This document shows positions 37,800 through 53,257 of a DNA stretch of 64,000 bases, piece by piece. A program made the position numbers and the translations under genes. Origin of the DNA: Rhizophagus irregularis (lineage: Eukaryota > Glomeromycota > Glomeromycetes > Glomerales > Glomeraceae); assembly GCF_026210795.1 (NCBI RefSeq), contig NC_089452.1:2790001-2854000 (forward strand), read 5' to 3'. The notes below the pieces were generated by a model, which had not been told where the DNA came from, searched no databases, and saw only the letters and a program-made list of their open reading frames with translations. Numbering within the stretch: the stretch's first letter is position 1; each line of letters begins with the position of its first letter.

Positions 37800-38910
37800 A
37801 TGTCAAATGATAAAGATAATCCAGTTACAAATATTTCTATAATGAATGATAAAATTTTTATAAAAGAATTTTCAAAAGAATTTTATCAAAAAATTATTGA
37901 TATAAAAGATATCAATACATTTGAAATCACTTTAAAAAAATGGATAAAAAATCTTGATAAAAACATCAAATCAATTTTAGAATTAATGAAAAATCATAAT
38001 AAAAATGAATTATTATTTTCCAGTATTATTGGATTTTTTTATCAATATGGTATCGGTTGTAATATTGATAAAAATAAGGCATTAAAATTATATTTATTGG
38101 CAGTTAATAATAATGAAAAATCTTTAAATGAAAGTTTTGAACATTTACAATTTTCTGAAGAAGAAAATGATAATGAATTTGATATAATACAAAATAATAA
38201 TATTATTATTGGAAAATATTTATTATCATTATTTTATTATAAAGATATTATTTTAAGTATTAAAACCTTAGGATATCGTTATCATTATGGTCAAGGAGTA
38301 GTACAAAATTATAAGAAAGCATTTAAATGGTATTTAAAATCAGCCAAATATGGATGTGCTGAAAATCAATATAGTTTAGGGTTGTGTTATAAGAATGGAA
38401 TTGGAATAGATAAAGATTATGATAAAGCATTTAAATGGTATTCCATGTCAGCTAATAATGGATCTGCTTTGGGTCAATATGGTTTAGGTTTGTGTTATCA
38501 TTATGGTATAGGAACAGTTAAAGATTATTCTAAAGCATTTGATTTATTTTTAAAATCAGCTAATAATGGGTGTGCTAAAGGTCAATATAATTTAGGTTAT
38601 TGTTATTATAATGGAATTGGAATAAGTGTGAATTACAAAGAAGCGTTTAAATGGTATCTAAAGTCTGCTAAATTGGAAAATGCAATGGCAAAAAATAGTT
38701 TAGGAGAATGTTATTTTTATGGTAAAGGAGTACAAAAAAATTATGAAGATGCATTTACATGCATGGTATTTAAAATCAGCTAATGATGGATGTGCTTTGG
38801 GAATATATAATTTAGGGGTTTGTTACCATTATGGCTTAGGAACTAATAAGGATAAAGAAGAAGCAATCCTTTTGTTTAAAAAAGCCTCAGATAACGGAAT
38901 TCAGGTTTAA
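37800..38910 (+). CDS. Sel1-repeat protein with one frameshift near its 3' end
   Basis: The first frame (37800-38783) encodes a 327-residue product. An N-terminal helical part is followed, from about residue 156, by successive Sel1 repeats of about 36 residues with the pattern LG..Y..G.G...DY.KAF.WYLKSA..G. Near 38756-38768 the frame shifts inside ATGCATTTACATGCATGG, and the next repeat (WYLKSANDGCALGIYNLG) continues in another frame to a stop at 38910. Sel1 repeats form alpha-solenoid scaffolds, often in signalling or protein-quality-control complexes (family knowledge). The truncated product would lose only the last one and a half repeats, so it may still be functional. A sequencing error in the ATGCAT repeat is possible. 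Confidence 0.8.
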
Positions 38911-44336: not shown

Positions 44337-47300
44337 CTAATTAATTAAATAAATAAATCATTTTCATGTAAATAATTTTCAAGATTAAATTTTATATGTA
44401 TTATTGCATACCTTGCATACCTAATGACTTTAAATCTTTAATCATATAATTATCCAAATTTTCACTTTCAAGAATTTCATTCAATTTTTCACTAGTGAAA
44501 TCATGTAAGCGACTTGTATAATATGCTTTAGGATGAGATTTAATAGCTAGATCATAATGCCCAATTGGTGCATCTATAAATTCCATAATGTTGCTTTTTA
44601 ATTCTTCACTAACTAATTTATAATAAGGACGGAAAATCCAATTCTTAATAACACCTTTCACTTCTGAAGTAGATGGTCTTTTTAATGGATCTTCATTCCA
44701 ACATTTTTTCATTAAATCTACATAGCATTGTGGAGTATTTTCAATAATTTCAGGACGTTCACCTTTACAAATACTTAAACTAAGTTAAAGATCATGTGCT
44801 CTATTATTAAATGGTGGTGCCCCAGATGTAAATTCCCACATAATCATAGAAAAACTATATATATCACTAGCTGGAGTATAAGATTTGCCTCTTAAAACTT
44901 CAGGTGCCATAAATGGTATAACACCATAAATATCATACTTTTTCAAAAATGATTTTACAGGTTGGCATAACCCTAAATCACTAATATAACTTCTATTATC
45001 ACCATACTCATCATTATGATTTAAAATATTACCATCATGAAAATCACAATGAATAAGACTTTTTCCATGTATCTTACTAAGTCCAGAAATAATTTCGTAC
45101 AACATATGTAATTTTTGATTCCAATGATTTTCGACTATTCCTGTTAAATTTTCTCTTAAATTGCCTTTATTTGCATAATCCATTACTACCATATATTTTG
45201 AAGTATTTAGATCTTTTGTAAATCCATAAAAATCAATAATATTATCTGAACCTAAACACTTTTTATGATATTCCCACTATAAAAAATAATAATAATTCAT
45301 TAATATAAATAAGTTATAATTTAAATTAAATTAAAAATAGGAAATAATATATTATCATACTTCTTTTAAAAATTCACTTAAATTTTCACTTAAATTCTTG
45401 TGACATTTAAGAATTACTTCATCATCTTCATTATCATTCAACCAAATAGCTTTGTATATAGTACCAAATCCTCCTTCACTAAGATATTCAACATATTCAA
45501 ATTTATTATAAGGAATCCATTTAAGTCCATTTTTAAGAATAAAATCATCTATAATTGCATTTCCACTTTTTCCGAACCTATAAATTTAAATAATAAAATT
45601 ATATTATAGTTTATATTAAAATTTACACTAAAAAATGAATTTATAATTAGCACTTACTCTAAAATTCAAATAGAAATTTATATGACATAAATTTTAGTTT
45701 TTGGATAAAATTATATAATAATAACATATAATTCACAACTTACCAACTAAAGTAATGGGTGTTTTTAAATAAAAGGATCCAGTTAACAAATAAATATTAT
45801 ATAAAATATATAACAATAGAAAAAACGAATAACTTACAAGCTATATAATTAAATAATTTTTTAAATAAAGAATTTAGTTTAAATTATATAAATATTATAC
45901 AAATAAGTAATAATAAAATTAAATAAATAACTTACGAACTGTTGTATTATTAAATAATTTTTAAATAAAGAATTTAGTTAGTTTAAATTATATAAATATT
46001 ATATAAATAAGTAATAATAAAATCAAATAAATAACTTATAACTTACGTTCTAATTAAATAAAGAATTTAGTTAGTTTAAATTGTATGTAAATATTATATA
46101 AATGAGTAATAATAGAATTACTTATGACTTACCAACTAAAATAAATTATAAAATAATTTTTTAAATAAAGAATTTAATTAGTTTAAATTATATTTAAATA
46201 TTATATAAATAAGTAATAATAAAATTAAATAAATAACTTACCCTCTATATTATAAAACAAATTTTTAAATAAAAAATTTAGTTAGTAGTTTAAATTATAT
46301 GTAAATGTTTTATAAATAAGTAATAATAGAATTAAATAAATAACTTACTCTCTATATTATTAAATAATTTTTTAAATAAAGAATTTAGTTAGTTTAAATT
46401 ATATTTAAATATTATATAAATAACTAATAATAAAATTAAATAAATAACTTATAACTTACTATCTAAAATAAATTACAAATTATAAATAATTTTTTATAAA
46501 GAATTTAGTTAGTTTAAATTATATGTAAATATTATATAAATAAGTAAATAAATAACTTACTTCCTATATTATTAAATAATTTTTTAAATAAAGAATTTAG
46601 TTAGTTTAAATTATATGTAATTAAATAACTTATAACTTACGTTCTATATAAAAGAATTTAATTAGTTTAAATTATATGTAAATATTATATAAAATAGGTA
46701 ATAATAATTAAATAAATAACTTATAACTTACGTTCTAAAATAAATTACAAATTACAAAATAATTTTTTAAATAAAGAATTTAGTTAGTTTAAATTATATT
46801 TAAATATTATATTAATAAGTAATAATAGAATTAAGTAAATAACTTACTCCCTATCTTTGCTGAAACCCATGAAATCGCGGCTATGTAGTAGCCATGCTGC
46901 CGCCACTTAACGTAGTAGGCGTACGGCTACTCTATGTTAATTCTAACGCAATTGTATGTATTTAATATAGAAAATATGTAGTAAATTATAGTCATAATAT
47001 AGAAATTGTATTGCCAATATAAAGAAACTATACAAATGTCAGCAAGAAACTGTATAAATGATTTAAAGTAATGATATATATGTGATGTAGTAAATTCATA
47101 ATAAATATATAGTAAATTTGTAGTAACTTTATAATAAATTGTAGTAAATATATAATAAATATACAGTAAATTCATGGTAAATATATAATAAATACATAGT
47201 AAATTGATAGTAAATATATATGTATTCTTGTATATATGCAAATTTGTGAGTCCCAATCACGTTCTAAAGGAAGGAACTTCTCTCTACTGATCCTCAACCC

Positions 47301-50300
47301 ATAATTTTTGCGAAGTAAAAAGGTGATAGTTGACGCACTTTTTAGTGGTACTGCAATGTGGAGTTGATTAGTGAGATGATATTTGCATTTTTTTAGCGAA
47401 AAGTCAGAAGTTTTTCTTACCAAGAAACCAGACAAAAAGATAGTTCTTTTGGTAGGTTAACTCGTATTCAGTTTTTGTAGAGTTTTAGAGAAGTAGCTAC
47501 TTTATTACGCCTTTCTCTTTAAATTTTCTTTGTGCTTATTTGTAAGTATGAACAAGACCTGGCAGTAACATACTGCGATGGTATACCTAGCTGGCTGATA
47601 TCTTTTATCAACGTACTATTCTTCACAAGAAGGTCTGGTGCACTGGTTAAAGTTAATAGTGATAAAATGAAATGGGATTAGTAATAATAATGGCAACCAT
47701 GAGTTTAGTGGTTTTCTCAGAAATGTTTTTGTCTTCGTACACGAAGCTTCATACAACTTTTACAAATAATGAGGTAAAGCAACAAGAAAATGAGAATTCT
47801 GCAGTCAGAAATAATAAACCACTCGTCCAGATACCAAAGATAATGATGTTATAGAAGCTTTGCATACTTTGGAAATATTAAAGAATAGAAATATGAAATT
47901 TTGAATACATCAATACGCACAGAAGGAATGAAAGATTAATCAACAAAAAATAAGATGATTTGATCACAAAACATGATCCCTTCGTCAAAATAAGGTGTGG
48001 TAAAGAGGAAGGTTCTTAGTGATCTAAAGATTTGAATTCAAGGTTTGTTATAAAAAAATACACGAAAAAACCAAAGTTATTTCATTTATCCAAAAAAGTA
48101 AAATAAAAATCCAGAATAGAAATCTACAAAAAAAAGAAGAAACTGTTAGTATACGTCTTTTCAACTAAAATTTTAAGTTCAAAATATTTCAAAACTAGCC
48201 TACCTATTACAACACATCCAGATTCAAAGAGAAAGCAACCTAAAAAAGAAAGAAAACAAAATGTTATAAAACGTCTCATTTTAAAGAATAAATTCAAGAA
48301 GAAAAAAAATGATAAAAATTGATTTTTTACTGAAATTCTACACGTCTAAAGACCAGAAGAATGGATGCTGTAAAAAAAAAAATGAAATAAATGAAATGTT
48401 AGTGATTCTGTGATTGTTTTGTTAAAAGGATTAATTCAAAGCAAAAGTAAAAGACTGACCGAATCTTCTAAGCGTTTAAGCACCCAAAAAGCTGGCCATT
48501 TACAAAAAAATGAAAATAAAACGCTAGTAGCTATTTTATTAAAGTAAAATAGAGACTGAAAGATGCACCTAAAAAAAAGAATAAGAAATAGACTGTAAGT
48601 AAAGTTCATTAAAAATAAAAATAAATTAATTTTTCTTTACCTTTGAGATTATAATATCCAAGCTAAAGCCGATTTTCCTACAAAAAAAAAAGAAAAAAAT
48701 GTTTAAAATTTTTTTTTAAAAAGTATATTTTTGATTATTTTGGAAACTTACTCAATTGCATGTTTTTGGAAGAAAAGTGTTTTGCTCTCTACTGTTACAG
48801 CGGAATCTTCTGATTGGTGATGTACTGTACAATGGCGGTATTGACATTTCGCTCATAGTCCAAAAGCCAGACTCCAAAACCCACAAAATAGAAACAAAAT
48901 AAAGTTTCAATATAATGTTTTTTATTAAAGTTCTTGAAATTCAAAAATTATCTAGAGATCCAAAATCAAAATTTGGCCAGATTTTTACAAGATAGAAATA
49001 AAAAAATGTTAAAATAACATTTTTTAACAAGTTTTGAAAGATTCCATGTTTTTGATGCTTAGAGGTGTGAACTGGCCATCTAAAAAGCCTAAAAATAAAA
49101 AAAATAAACTGCTAGAAACTGTTCATTAAAAGCAAATAAAGAAAAAAAATGAAAAGTATATCAAAATTTCGTGTCAACTGAAAAGAATACCTAAAAAAAA
49201 AAAATTGAAACATTAGAAAATGTCTTGTTAAGAATTTTTTAATAGAAAGTGTAAGTCAGGTAAGCAAAATAAGGGATTTTTATGAAAGAAGTGGGAAAAG
49301 AGAAAAAAAAGACAAAGGGAAGGAAAAGATGAAGTAAACGAGAGAAAGGGGAGGGAGGGGAGAGAAAAAAGAGGAAAAGGGAGTTTGTTTAAATTTTAAA
49401 AGTTTAAATTTAACTTTTGTGATACGCGTTATGTGGTAGTGTAGTACACAAATACGTGATGTTCTTGTTTAATCAGCTGATGCCGATTTGTCTTATTTTG
49501 ACTAGTGATAGTGTTATAAATGGAAAAATTATTATTAGGAATACAACATCGGTCAGCAGTCAAAGGCTTTTATTTTACAATAGGAGCGTAAGGGTGAAAA
49601 GGGTGAAGTAATCAATCAGTGTTACAATAGGAGCACGGGGATAAAGGTTTTATTAATCAATGTGTGAAAAGACGAATGCTTTTTATTAATTTACTCATAT
49701 CATATGGACAATATTTTTTGTTTTTTTATTTCTATTATCGAGGTTATTGTTAGATTTATACTGTATGTATAAAAGTTTAATTGTTAACAAAAGCTTATTT
49801 ATCTGTTATTGATACATAGAGTTTTTAATATATTTAAACTTATATAAAGAAAAGTCTATTGTTCTATTTTTAAACTTTAATATTTAAGTTTAAATTATTT
49901 GTTTAAATAAACTTTTTGACCTTTTCTTATAACTCAAATATACTTTTTATATTTTTCTCATATAACTAATAAACTTTATTAATAAAAAAATCACTTCAAA
50001 TTTCGTGGTTACAGTATTTTTCATTTTAAGAATTTTTTTCAAATATTATAAATTAAATAATTATTTAAAATGACAAGATTGCGAAAAAGTACTATGTAAA
50101 ATCTAACATAATATTACAATTTTTTGTTTATTTTAATTTAATCATGAACGTGAATGTGGTTGTGGTCATGGCAGTAAAATCTGCCTGCAAGTCCAACCCA
50201 AGTGTAAAAAACCAATGCAGGTAACAATTTTAGACTGTTTTTGAAGAAATTAGCAGTATTTTTTCTTATTTTAGCAATTTTTACTCATTTACATCTATTT

Positions 50301-53257
50301 TAACCAGGTAATCAAAGTATTTAAAGCTAATGATAATATAGTAAGAAGCTTAAAAATTTTGGATGATTTCCAGTGAATACTTGCTCTTTAAATGAATCTA
50401 GACGCATAAAATTTAGTTGAATTATTTTTTGGGCTAATTCTTAGGTATAGTAGGTGTAATATGACAAATGGTAGTAAGTGTGAGGCGTAGTTATCACGTG
50501 ACATCTTCTCACATGATGCTAAACTGGAGATATGTCATCATTTCGTGGTGTAGATTGATAAAATGTTTATTTATTCAAGGGAATACTGATGACAAGCTAG
50601 ATGCGTAGCAATAGAGAGTGAAAATTCTATTATTATTATTGATTAATAATCTTGGAAAATTCAAGAATAATCGAGTTGATTAAGAAATTCAAAATGAAAA
50701 TTTGAATTTTGGAATGAAATTCAGAGTTTGACAGAAATGATCGTCTGCAGTGAAGTTTTGAATATATTAATTTTGTATTTTATTATTTTATTTTAATAAA
50801 GATCTAGGTGAAAAAATAATTTCTTTATGGTTGAGAAGTATGGTGGTATTGAACCCATATCACTACGTGTCCATGTCCTTATATTTGGCTGTAAAATTTT
50901 CTGGGATCATCTGTACGAGTCGAGGGTGCAAATCATAAATATATTGGATTCATCGATTGATATCATGTAATTATGAACAAAAATGAAAGTATTTATTTTT
51001 TTTATTTTAATTGTTTCTTTTAATTAATGTTTACTAATTGTTCATTTATTTTTTGTTTAGAGTTAGGAAACCACTTTTCTCCTTTCGTAGAAATTTTACA
51101 AAGTTTTTTATCTTTTATTAATGAATCTTTTATTAATGTGGGTTACTTCATAAGCTTTCTCACCAGCTGGCAAAGTGTATGAAATTTCTTTTAATTCACA
51201 AAAGAAAGCCTTGCTAAAGTCATCTTTAGCGTAGGTCTAGTAATACATTGCCTTAATTGAGCGTGGCTATGGAGTTTATGAAGCCCCTATTGATATATCT
51301 TATATCTAATTACACAATTTATTTACTATTTAAATTTAAATGCATGTACGAAAGTCATAGAATCTTTATTCTTCTTAATGCATTTCAGTAATATATTGTA
51401 TGTATATATTGTCTTTGATAATAAATTACACACAAATTTCGTACTATATATTTAATAATACTATACATTTTAACAATACTATATATTTAATAATATAGAT
51501 TTTATAATGCATCTAAAAAAACTTTATACTCTATAAATATTAGGTAAATTTACACAGTTTTATTTTCGTACTTTTAAAATTAATAAATTGTCGTATTAAC
51601 ATTCTTCATCGCCACTATATAGAAGATATGAAGTAAAAAGATAGAATCTATAATTGCATAATTTTTTAAAAAAAAATAATTGTATTTTTTTAAAATTAAA
51701 AACGTATTTCTCGAAATTAAAAATAAATAAAGTTTCATATTACCTCCACGTAGACAATATAAAGTAATGAGGTAGAAACTGGACAGCCAAAACGAAAAAA
51801 ATGCCACTAGCAATCAACCATATAGTCACATGATAGTCACATGACAGAAGTGTTAAAGTAGCTAAATCTGAGGTTTCAGCAAAGATATTATTAAATAATT
51901 TTTTAAATAAAGAATTTAGTTAGTTTAAATTATATGTACATATTATATTAATAAGTAATAATAAGAATTAACTCATAACTTACGTTCTATTTAAATAAAG
52001 AATTTAGTTAGTTTAAATTATATGCAAATATTGTATAAATAAGTAATAATAGAATTAAATTAACTTCTTACCCCCTATATTATTAAATAATTTTTTAAAT
52101 AAAGAATTTAGTTAGTTTAAATTACGTGTAAATATTATATAAATCAGTGATAATAAATAACTTATAACTTACGTTCTAATTAAATAAAGGATTTAGTTAA
52201 TTTAAATTATATGTAAATATTATATAAATAAGTAATAATAGAATTAAATAAATAACTTATAACTTACCATCTAAATAAATTAAAATTACAAAATAATTTT
52301 TTAAATAAAGAATTTAGTTAGTTTAATTTATATGCAAATATTATATAAATAAGTAATAATAGACTTAAATGAATAACTTATAACTTACATTCTAATTAAA
52401 TAAAAAATTTAGTTAGTTTAAATTATATGTAAATATTATATAAATAAGTAATAATAGAATTAAATAAATAACTTATAACTTACGTTCTAATTAAATAAAG
52501 AATTTTGTTAGTTTAAATTGTATGTAAGTATTATATAAATAAGTAATAATAGAATTAAATAGTAAATAACTTATGACTTACCATCTAAAATAAATTACAA
52601 AATAATTTTTTAAATAAAGAATTTTTTAGCTTAAATTAAATAAATAATAGAAATATAAATGTAACTTACACCCTATATATTATTAATTATTAATTAGTTA
52701 GATATGAACATAATATAAAAATATTTACTGAAAAATTAAATATATTACTTACAATCTATATTAAGAATATAATTAGTTAAGTTATAGCTATATAAGATAT
52801 TAAGCAAATAAAATAATATATATTGTAGCTTACCATCTGTAATATAATCAATTATTAAATAGTTGTTAAGCAAAGATTTTAGTTATTTGAATATTATGTA
52901 AAATAAGTAAAGTAAAAACTAAAGATTTAAATAACTGATAACTTACCAACTATAGTATTATTAATTATTAAATAAATTATTTAGTTACATGAAAAATAAC
53001 AAAAATAATAAGTAAATTATTTAACGTGATTTTTGTATAATATAAAAAATTATATTTGTATATTATTATATAAGATATAATTATAGATGGTATTTAAATG
53101 CATTTGCAAATAAAATTTAATTTTTCAACTTGTTTAATATACCTTTATTACTATTTACTTTAAATTCCTCAATATTTTCCTCAAATTCTTCAATACTACT
53201 TTTTATTTTATTGCGAATTTGTTTAAAAATACTACCCTTATTATTACTGTAAGCCAT
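44212..53257 (-). CDS. TKL-like kinase gene with an array of 3-nt exons, interrupted by a 5-kb element
   Basis: Proposed minus-strand model: exon 1 53257-53143, then 23 exons of 3 nt and one of 1 nt (52949 to 45658), then 45577-45361, 45276-44421 (or -44412) and 44336-44212. Exon 1 ends in phase 1, 3-nt exons keep that phase, the 1-nt exon changes it to phase 2, and the next exon enters with one base before the kinase frame. Every junction has AG before and GTAAG after. The micro-exons spell VDDWYEQYERER and KQRNKKVELPFE with no stop. The product would be about 460 residues: an acidic helical N-terminus, a charged linker, then a kinase domain (SEGGFGTIYKA, IHCDFHDGN, DLGLCQP, APEVLRGKSYT). 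One in-frame TAA (44787-44785) and the inserted element suggest it may be decaying. All splice sites are by eye. Confidence 0.6.
44412..45276 (-). CDS. Kinase gene, main catalytic exon with an in-frame TAA
   Basis: Opens WEYHKKCLGSDNIIDFYGFT after acceptor TTTTATAG and contains MVVMDYANKGNLRENL, the catalytic loop IHCDFHDGN, DLGLCQP, YGVIPFMAPEVLRG, SDIYSFSMIMWEF and, after the TAA, ICKGERPEI and CWNEDPLKRPS. The stop at 44787-44785 interrupts AHDL and LSLSICKGERP; family members usually have Gln there, so a CAA to TAA change is the simple explanation. Both halves are in the same frame. Without readthrough the product lacks the end of the C-lobe. Confidence 0.8.
45361..45577 (-). CDS. Kinase gene, N-lobe exon
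   Basis: Between acceptor TTTATAG and donor GTATGA. It reads FGKSGNAIIDDF, WIPYNKFEYVEYLSEGGFGT, IYKAIWLND, then ILKCHKN with the ATP-binding Lys, and ends FLKE. The 84-bp intron to the next exon is phase 0. The exon needs two bases from upstream, which the 1-nt exon model supplies. Confidence 0.8.
45658..46852 (-). repeat. Micro-exon / intron array, left segment
   Basis: Twelve 3-nt exons and one 1-nt exon separated by introns of about 77-113 bp. Each unit is AG, three bases, GTAAG, then TTATTTAATT.TATTATTACTT, TATATAATATT, AATTTAAACTAACTAAATTC and A/T. Micro-exons in minus order: GGA 46850-46848, AAC 46734-46732, AAC 46643-46641, GAA 46563-46561, ATA 46462-46460, AGA 46351-46349, AGG 46244-46242, TTG 46135-46133, AAC 46049-46047, TTC 45938-45936, CTT 45840-45838, TTG 45746-45744, and the 1-nt A at 45658. 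A competing 1-nt option (T after TTTTTTAG) lies in the last intron. Confidence 0.75.
46855..51884. mobile_element. 5,030-bp TIR element inserted in one intron of the kinase gene
   Basis: Perfect 13-bp inverted ends: CTTTGCTGAAACC and GGTTTCAGCAAAG. On both sides the sequence is the intron array, and removing the element restores the unit (CCCTAT joined to ATTATTAAA). A 2-bp duplication AT (46853-46854 and 51885-51886) best fits the neighbouring units; TA one base over is the alternative. It lies 2 bp from an acceptor AG. No transposase is recognised, so it is non-autonomous or decayed. Inside: a (TAGTAAATATATAATAAATA)-like tandem repeat (about 47085-47222), a minus-strand intron-like array (about 47900-49300), a purine-rich tract (about 49280-49385) and a short Cys-rich reading (CGCGHGSKIC, near 50165). 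Confidence 0.8.
47900..49300 (-). repeat. Intron-like tandem units inside the 5-kb element
   Basis: On the minus strand several segments end in long T tracts and TAG or CAG after CTAAC- or CTAATG-like sequence, e.g. CACTAACATTTCATTTATTT, then T-tract and ACAG. They are followed by exon-like text such as GCTTTTTAGATGGCCAG or GAAAATCGGC and GTAA-type donors. The layout resembles the array at 20.2-22.1 kb. No continuous reading frame was established. Confidence 0.4.
51887..52951 (-). repeat. Micro-exon / intron array, right segment
   Basis: Eleven 3-nt exons in minus order: TTG 52949-52947, ATG 52836-52834, ATT 52755-52753, GGT 52672-52670, ATG 52584-52582, AAC 52486-52484, AAT 52391-52389, ATG 52270-52268, AAC 52175-52173, GGG 52074-52072, AAC 51986-51984. 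Each is flanked by AG and GTAAG, with introns of about 78-118 bp. Units 5-11 are most alike; those nearest exon 1 are more diverged, suggesting older copies. The intron between exon 1 and the first micro-exon is longer (193 bp). Confidence 0.75.
53143..53257 (-). CDS. Kinase gene, proposed first coding exon
   Basis: ATG at 53257, 38 codons plus one base, to a GTATAT donor. It reads MAYSNNKGSIFKQIRNKI and continues as an acidic helix (SSIEEFEENIEEFKV). No other start is needed. It lies just upstream of the first micro-exon on the same strand and its phase matches the array. Confidence 0.6.

Follow-up and report, generated by a model that had tools for sequence, protein, structure and literature searches.

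Closest described systems and the array in the window

Genes with many short exons are known from Schistosoma, whose micro-exon genes (MEGs) encode secreted proteins and are described with exons of 6 or 3 to 81 bp, the vast majority of them 15 bp long, and introns that measure between 100 and almost 5,000 bp (PMC10526429). The kinase gene presented here would share with them the many short exons per gene, mostly multiples of three, that are hard for automatic annotation (PMC10526429), but it departs from them in that the putative exons measure 3 nt and occur by the dozens, the introns of about 98 nt are often near copies of each other, and the affected region is a kinase linker. Exons of a single base have been reported for the plant genes APC11, where the exon is constitutive, and VPS55, where its donor is GTRAGT; like the units described below, they were missed by annotations (PMC4674806, PMC8831610). 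The consulted parts of these accounts, however, describe single 1-nt exons in conserved genes and no arrays. Drosophila homothorax offers a 3-bp micro-exon, yet this is one exon, alternatively spliced from another (PMC7392893). Recursive splicing at zero-nucleotide AG|GT sites resembles the present arrangement in that an acceptor abuts a donor and removal is stepwise, whereas those sites leave nothing behind and typically lie in long introns, while here 3 nt would stay and be translated (PMC13149111). Among the matches listed for open-access PubMed Central, we recognised by title or abstract start neither arrays like these nor micro-exons in mycorrhizal fungi. The layout could be categorically new, although its parts (micro-exons, short introns and ordinary splice signals) are known; under a stricter view it could count as an extreme form of micro-exon gene.

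The stretch of Rhizophagus irregularis DNA that was analysed (64,000 nt; the window) carries on its minus strand the array pointed out in the initial annotation, namely 23 AG-NNN-GTAAG units (52949 to 45744) followed by a single AG-A-GTAAG unit at 45658 (Table 1). Simulations of the same 8 kb under a first-order Markov model gave a mean of 0.18 and a maximum of 3 such 3-nt units in 500 runs, which rules out a chance origin. Neighbouring units were spaced by 80–121 nt, in agreement with the earlier description. The one exception is the interval from 51986 to 46850, in which a 5.0-kb element splits the array; the units thus do not stand "in a row" without interruption, as had been stated. Likewise, the introns turned out by eye to be of several related types instead of near-repeats of one intron. 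The phases proved to be as claimed: exon 1 leaves one base, and this phase is held through the 23 triplets until the 1-nt exon changes it to the one in which the N-lobe exon fits. The 24 new codons of the window gene contain no stop and translate as VDDWYEQYERERKQRNKKVELPFE.

Table 1. Array gene of the window: putative exons and insert (window coordinates)
Feature	Position	Strand	Remark
Exon 1, MAYSNNKGSIFKQIRNKIKSSIEEFEENIEEFKVNSNK + 1 base, donor G|GTATATTAAAC	53143..53257	-	115 nt, leaves phase 1
3-nt exon 1, TTG	52947..52949	-	AG-NNN-GTAAG unit
3-nt exon 2, ATG	52834..52836	-	AG-NNN-GTAAG unit
3-nt exon 3, ATT	52753..52755	-	AG-NNN-GTAAG unit
3-nt exon 4, GGT	52670..52672	-	AG-NNN-GTAAG unit
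3-nt exon 5, ATG	52582..52584	-	AG-NNN-GTAAG unit
3-nt exon 6, AAC	52484..52486	-	AG-NNN-GTAAG unit
3-nt exon 7, AAT	52389..52391	-	AG-NNN-GTAAG unit
3-nt exon 8, ATG	52268..52270	-	AG-NNN-GTAAG unit
3-nt exon 9, AAC	52173..52175	-	AG-NNN-GTAAG unit
3-nt exon 10, GGG	52072..52074	-	AG-NNN-GTAAG unit
3-nt exon 11, AAC	51984..51986	-	AG-NNN-GTAAG unit
DNA-transposon-like insert, in intron between exons 11 and 12, outside coding array	46852..51887	.	Perfect 16-nt terminal inverted repeats beginning with TA
3-nt exon 12, GGA	46848..46850	-	AG-NNN-GTAAG unit
3-nt exon 13, AAC	46732..46734	-	AG-NNN-GTAAG unit
3-nt exon 14, AAC	46641..46643	-	AG-NNN-GTAAG unit
3-nt exon 15, GAA	46561..46563	-	AG-NNN-GTAAG unit
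3-nt exon 16, ATA	46460..46462	-	AG-NNN-GTAAG unit
3-nt exon 17, AGA	46349..46351	-	AG-NNN-GTAAG unit
3-nt exon 18, AGG	46242..46244	-	AG-NNN-GTAAG unit
3-nt exon 19, TTG	46133..46135	-	AG-NNN-GTAAG unit
3-nt exon 20, AAC	46047..46049	-	AG-NNN-GTAAG unit
3-nt exon 21, TTC	45936..45938	-	AG-NNN-GTAAG unit
3-nt exon 22, CTT	45838..45840	-	AG-NNN-GTAAG unit
3-nt exon 23, TTG	45744..45746	-	AG-NNN-GTAAG unit
1-nt exon A	45658..45658	-	AG-A-GTAAG, phase 1 to phase 2
Kinase N-lobe exon (FGKSGNAIIDDF...), first base completes a codon	45361..45577	-	Sequence
Kinase exon to in-frame TAA (44787-44785)	44785..45276	-	Same frame open again to 44401

The perfect inverted ends of the 5.0-kb element (TATCTTTGCTGAAACC) lie at 46852-46867 and 51872-51887, and one of them has 41 matches genome-wide, itself included. 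The element was inserted immediately in front of the acceptor AG of the GGA unit, and its terminal TA seems by eye to provide the A of this acceptor. Given the insert in the array and the stop in the kinase domain, the window copy is probably decaying and may no longer make a whole kinase; we therefore judged the case on its relatives. The closest proteins were from R. irregularis, and the best two, 96–97% identical over 55–56% of the query, were taken as models of this locus. Both models start inside the last array intron, without exon 1 and triplets, which speaks against the reading proposed below, and both lack the codons around the TAA. The P0001 model presumably stems from the R. irregularis annotation built with short- and long-read RNA. 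Both read types are documented for that annotation (PMC10234402), and a short-read mapper reportedly misses a 1-nt exon that is not annotated (PMC8831610). Elsewhere in the window (38278-38796) we noted a coding-like 108-bp tandem repeat with 36 residues per unit. We take it to resemble Sel1 repeats.

Array family in the genome

To look beyond the window copy, we inspected the 10 kb upstream of each of its 20 nearest kinase paralogs, a sample chosen by similarity and not at random. Arrays were found on the sense strand in all 20. Counting lengths up to 12 nt, the sense strands contained 745 3-nt units, along with 2, 1 and 7 units of 2, 4 and 6 nt, respectively, a distribution that lacks the Schistosoma-type 15-bp majority as far as this length range can tell; the zero-nucleotide form of recursive splicing occurred 3 times in the 20 loci. 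The antisense strands of the same stretches contained no 3-nt unit. Exactly one 1-nt unit stood at the array end in each of the 20 paralogs, being A in 19 and T in L035. The arrays comprised 10 to at least 81 strict units, and those of L029 and L037 may be longer since they reach the edge of the 10-kb stretch. In 17 of the 21 arrays (window plus 20), ATT GGT was among the first strict units, often preceded by CTC TTG ATG, and most of the 21 ended with CTT TTG or a near form followed by the 1-nt unit. Together with three further similar arrays (C13x, C11x and C2x, from L024, L025 and L026-L028), the data set amounted to 24 arrays with 862 strict AG-NNN-GTAAG units. All 862 have the size (about 30 nt or less) and the splice signals of micro-exons, the signals being part of the search definition. 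A few deviating forms were also seen: between units 5250 and 5467 of L040 (sense strand), the 6-nt units TTGTTG and CAGATG stand beside 3-nt ones, and in L028, a member of a more distant subfamily, a 1-nt exon G with the donor GTAAAT, located past the last unit and ahead of the N-lobe exon, may by eye replace the A unit. Among 768 strict units from 21 arrays, the middle base of the triplet was T or G in more than 90% and C in 0.9%, and GTN triplets were nearly absent.

We then searched the genome (146.7 Mb, 32 contigs) with the pattern TATAG-NNN-GTAAGTTA. The 3-nt form, TATAGNNNGTAAGTTA, was found 2,129 times, compared with 27 matches for its 2-nt version, 9 for its 4-nt version and 15 for the reversed 3-nt version. 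As 385 of the 862 strict units match TATAGNNNGTAAGTTA, the genome would hold about 4,800 units, a rough figure because the 24 arrays are not a random sample. The N-lobe exon of the kinase family had at least 150 matches in the genome, and the curated cut-offs of the Pfam protein kinase entries PF07714 and PF00069 were both passed by all four deposited relatives in the scan (P0002, P0005, P0044 and P0008). The initial annotation had held that the same periodicity in arrays unlinked to any gene would refute its reading. When such arrays were looked for, 97 of the first 100 places listed genome-wide adjoined a kinase N-lobe exon, lying about 10 kb or less upstream of it on the same strand (hand count). 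The other three (G000:C1:1937611, C1:5227566 and C1:7918334) were solitary TATAGNNNGTAAGTTA units, none of them near a listed kinase exon. Introner elements are near-identical introns that occur in large numbers, dispersed over many unrelated genes of a genome. Introns that are nearly the same inside a locus and across loci were found here as well; as far as seen, the array introns are confined to a single position in a single kinase family, and their copies are separated by 3 nt.

This genome-wide invariance of the 3-nt length bears on the notion that the arrays are dead repeats, i.e., tandem copies of intron fragments inside one long intron that is spliced out whole or not transcribed. Such a reading would agree with the deposited models taken as this locus, which skip the array, and with the insert and stop of the window copy. 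It would leave unexplained why the length is kept throughout the genome and why stops are avoided at neighbouring junctions (see below), and the window gene would shift frame if the array and the 1-nt exon were skipped together. We thus regard dead repeats as highly improbable.

Reading phase of the triplets

In phase 1, a junction codon consists of the last base of one triplet and the first two of the next (n3|n1n2). For strict units separated by introns under 160 nt, none of the 764 neighbour junctions in the 24 arrays formed a stop codon, whereas 21.3 stops were expected when the triplets of each locus were placed in random order; 16 of the 24 loci contributed more than 0.3 to this expectation. 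A first count had given one stop in 747 junctions, but the 198 nt of that junction include an overlooked unit, AAG-GGG-GTAAG, and it therefore falls outside the strict set. When gaps were filled by admitting weaker splice signals, a single stop (L047, ATT then AGA) was observed in 839 junctions against 24.1 expected, and none of 2,000 shuffles was as low. The three further arrays on their own had 0 stops in 93 junctions where 3.0 were expected; 35 of 2,000 shuffles reached an equally low count, so this result is weak by itself. The avoidance was confined to neighbours in this phase. Triplets 2 to 10 units apart formed phase-1 stops at about the chance rate (107 in 3,406 at lags 2 to 6), and phase-2 stops arose at 107 of 839 neighbours, this type being somewhat more common between neighbours (12.8%) than at other lags (9.2–10.5%).

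Genome-wide pairs gave a concordant picture. The stop-forming combination of NNT followed by A[AG]N was found once, on C4, while in 297 pairs the T was replaced by A, C or G and 132 pairs had NNT followed by the harmless GGN. In the arrays analysed, the stop-forming class was empty and its harmless counterpart numbered 47; about 250 of the 297 harmless pairs thus come from outside these arrays. Before GGN, the analysed arrays had A, C or G in 88 cases and T in 19. Since 125 of the 549 units in that context end with T in the arrays analysed, about 88 stop-forming pairs would be expected genome-wide instead of the one observed.

A shared duplication history was considered as the cause of the stop avoidance, and all controls opposed it. 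In a rotation test that kept the block structure, one stop was found at the true offset, while rotated offsets had a mean of 24.4 and a minimum of 13 (0 of 5,000 as low). The array cores, i.e., arrays of more than 14 units without their first five and last three units, showed no stop at 584 neighbour junctions. Here TAA, TAG and TGA were each absent against 7.6, 7.3 and 3.3 expected, and were the three most depleted of all junction codons whose expectation was 3 or more; the next lowest stood at 0.55 of expectation. When each neighbour pair of the cores was counted once, 0 of 246 distinct pairs gave a stop, compared with 8 to 16 of 220 to 268 at lags 2–8; the lag control given above agrees with this.

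Both ends of the array require the same phase. An upstream exon was recognised in 5 of the 20 paralogs (L030, L033, L038, L039 and L040) and always ended with ESK G|GTA in phase 1; in L030, L038, L039 and L040 the donor was like that of the window, ESK G|GTATATC. In the remaining paralogs the upstream exon was not found (11) or unclear (4). As the first base of the N-lobe exon completes a codon, the two sides agree in requiring phase 1 plus one base. The N-terminus encoded by exon 1 was MGQC or MDQC in L039, L040 and L045 and MAYS in the window gene. The former may be a lipid-anchor signal. Overall, the triplets look translated in phase 1, each together with its genomic neighbour. This part of the initial annotation is supported for the window gene and its 20 nearest paralogs, where the triplets behave as translated single-codon exons in the claimed phase, followed by a 1-nt exon.

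Translation in phase 0, with each triplet as one codon (Gly, Leu, Met, Ile, Phe), AGTAA as last exon and a hydrophobic linker as product, was weighed against this. At least 7 of 101 deposited relatives read the array in this way by eye (P0008, P0014, P0015, P0026, P0033, P0037 and P0039); in these models each triplet is a codon and the row ends with LSK, as a last exon AGTAA|GT would give. Two of them are from R. diaphanus, including P0026, where MIG opens the row as ATG ATT GGT would give. The linkers of the seven suggest that gene models of further isolates and of a sister species include rows of 3-nt exons. Phase-0 stops are also few, with 4 in 768 triplets against 22 expected from the column make-up, but these affect four arrays. 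Furthermore, phase 0 offers no explanation for the absence of stops solely at neighbour junctions in phase 1, and the upstream exon, where recognised, ends in phase 1. The sole one of the seven with an upstream exon, P0008, matches the triplets of L040 and seems to reach phase 0 by reading through the unit GGT into the intron. We consider phase-0 translation very unlikely. A deposited protein with a phase-1 linker was not found among the matches listed in a search with 11 of the 24 joined linkers. The models that begin inside the array and those in phase 0 suggest that deposited models of the kinase family lack or misread a coding region.

The lag dependence also informs on exon skipping. According to the initial annotation, any subset of triplets could be skipped without frameshift. 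A rival reading would be that the arrays act as dials of alternative splicing, with many subsets in routine use and linkers of varied length. Frame would indeed survive, as nearly all units are of 3 nt. Selection has not preserved open frames in the skipped products, though: stops appear at the chance rate between triplets 2–10 units apart while strict neighbours have none, leaving out one exon would create a stop in about 3% of cases (lag 2), and the 1-nt exon is not skippable without a frameshift. We thus deem combinatorial skipping unlikely. The absence of stops at neighbours, together with the chance rate at larger lags, speaks for all exons being normally included in order, and routine skipping is not supported.

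Proposed splicing and codon diversification

The strict introns under 160 nt were 68–154 nt long (median 98.5). A CTAAY motif 12–60 nt from the intron end was present in 635 of 764, and in 633 of these 635 the AG of the unit was the first AG after the motif. A second GTAAG was not found inside any of the 635 CTAAY introns. With complete signals and no second donor, most introns would be unambiguous targets, and scanning for the first AG would select the right site. Each unit would accordingly represent a complete short spliceosomal intron with a GTAAGT donor, usually a CTAAY branch point and the first AG thereafter, and every removal would leave three bases right before the next donor. Since a 3-nt exon would hardly leave room for spliceosomes on its two sides simultaneously, the introns are probably removed in turn, by intron definition and most simply from 5' to 3' during transcription, so that the upstream exon would gain one codon per step. 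The process would be like recursive splicing but leave one codon behind each time. All triplets would be joined in order, and the final 1-nt exon would correct the frame for the kinase exons. From the units, their genome-wide family and the stop-free neighbour junctions in one phase, which are features of the sequence itself, we infer this splicing and its order, and we conclude that these loci very probably contain real arrays of single-codon exons, all joined in order, with the 1-nt exon setting the kinase frame.

The predicted product is a gene-specific linker that connects a short N-terminal segment to the protein kinase domain and measures 10 to more than 80 residues. Abundant residues of these linkers are Arg, Asp, Tyr, Gly, Phe, Trp and Asn. 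Apart from the lack of stops, an excess of Phe and Trp and a deficit of Val, the residues at neighbour junctions are near random expectation, so that they seem little constrained.

A comparison of introns and triplets revealed a sharp difference in variability. We examined 936 unit pairs from 20 of the 24 arrays, each pair from the same array and with far flanks at least 94% identical, the near flanks being unused in the choice and the AG and GTAAG sites being invariant by definition of a unit. Near flanks differed at 2.0% and 2.4% of sites and triplet sites at 32%. The variability of the triplets thus exceeds that of the near intron flanks on either side by a factor of about 14–16, and the change is abrupt at the edges. 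Among 224 pairs with identical 58-nt flanks on both sides, the triplet differed in 36, in 11 of them at all three sites, which opposes plain tandem duplication followed by point mutation. For instance, 16 of the 25 listed introns of L044 are by eye near copies of one sequence of about 101 nt, placed between CTC, GGA, ATG, GGT and TTC. The serial duplication of an intron plus one codon, as originally proposed, therefore holds for the spacing of three, which is kept, but not for the codons, which do not follow their introns faithfully (2% versus 32% mismatch).

Intron likeness did not fall with distance along the array. Pairs at 95% identity made up 13.4% within and 4.2% between loci; the best full-length match was in another locus for 342 introns and in the own locus for 321 (93 ties, 8 without match), other loci being hit about as often because many more of them are available. 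Two further origins were rejected. A transposon-like 3-bp target duplication is opposed by the frequency at which neighbours share a triplet, 0.168 compared with 0.135 after shuffling, which is only a slight excess; plain insertion of introns into an old exon would, by argument, not force a spacing of 3 nt. We tentatively propose, as a possibility rather than a probability, that the arrays are a codon-by-codon generator of diversity. Near-identical introns would serve as recombination tracts through which codons are added, lost or reshuffled within and between genes of the family with the frame intact, and some further process or strong diversifying selection would keep altering the triplets but leave the introns similar.

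Known exons of 1–3 nt stand alone in the cited literature, while here there are apparently thousands, about 4,800 by the rough extrapolation, in rows of up to 81 or more. This raises the question of how the spliceosome joins dozens of 3-nt exons in order and misses none, with implications for recursive splicing as well as for exon and intron definition. Alike introns next to variable codons point to protein diversification by an unexplained route. The affected kinase family belongs to a model mycorrhizal fungus, and if the proposed diversification is true, each kinase would carry a private linker, perhaps for signalling specificity or self-recognition.
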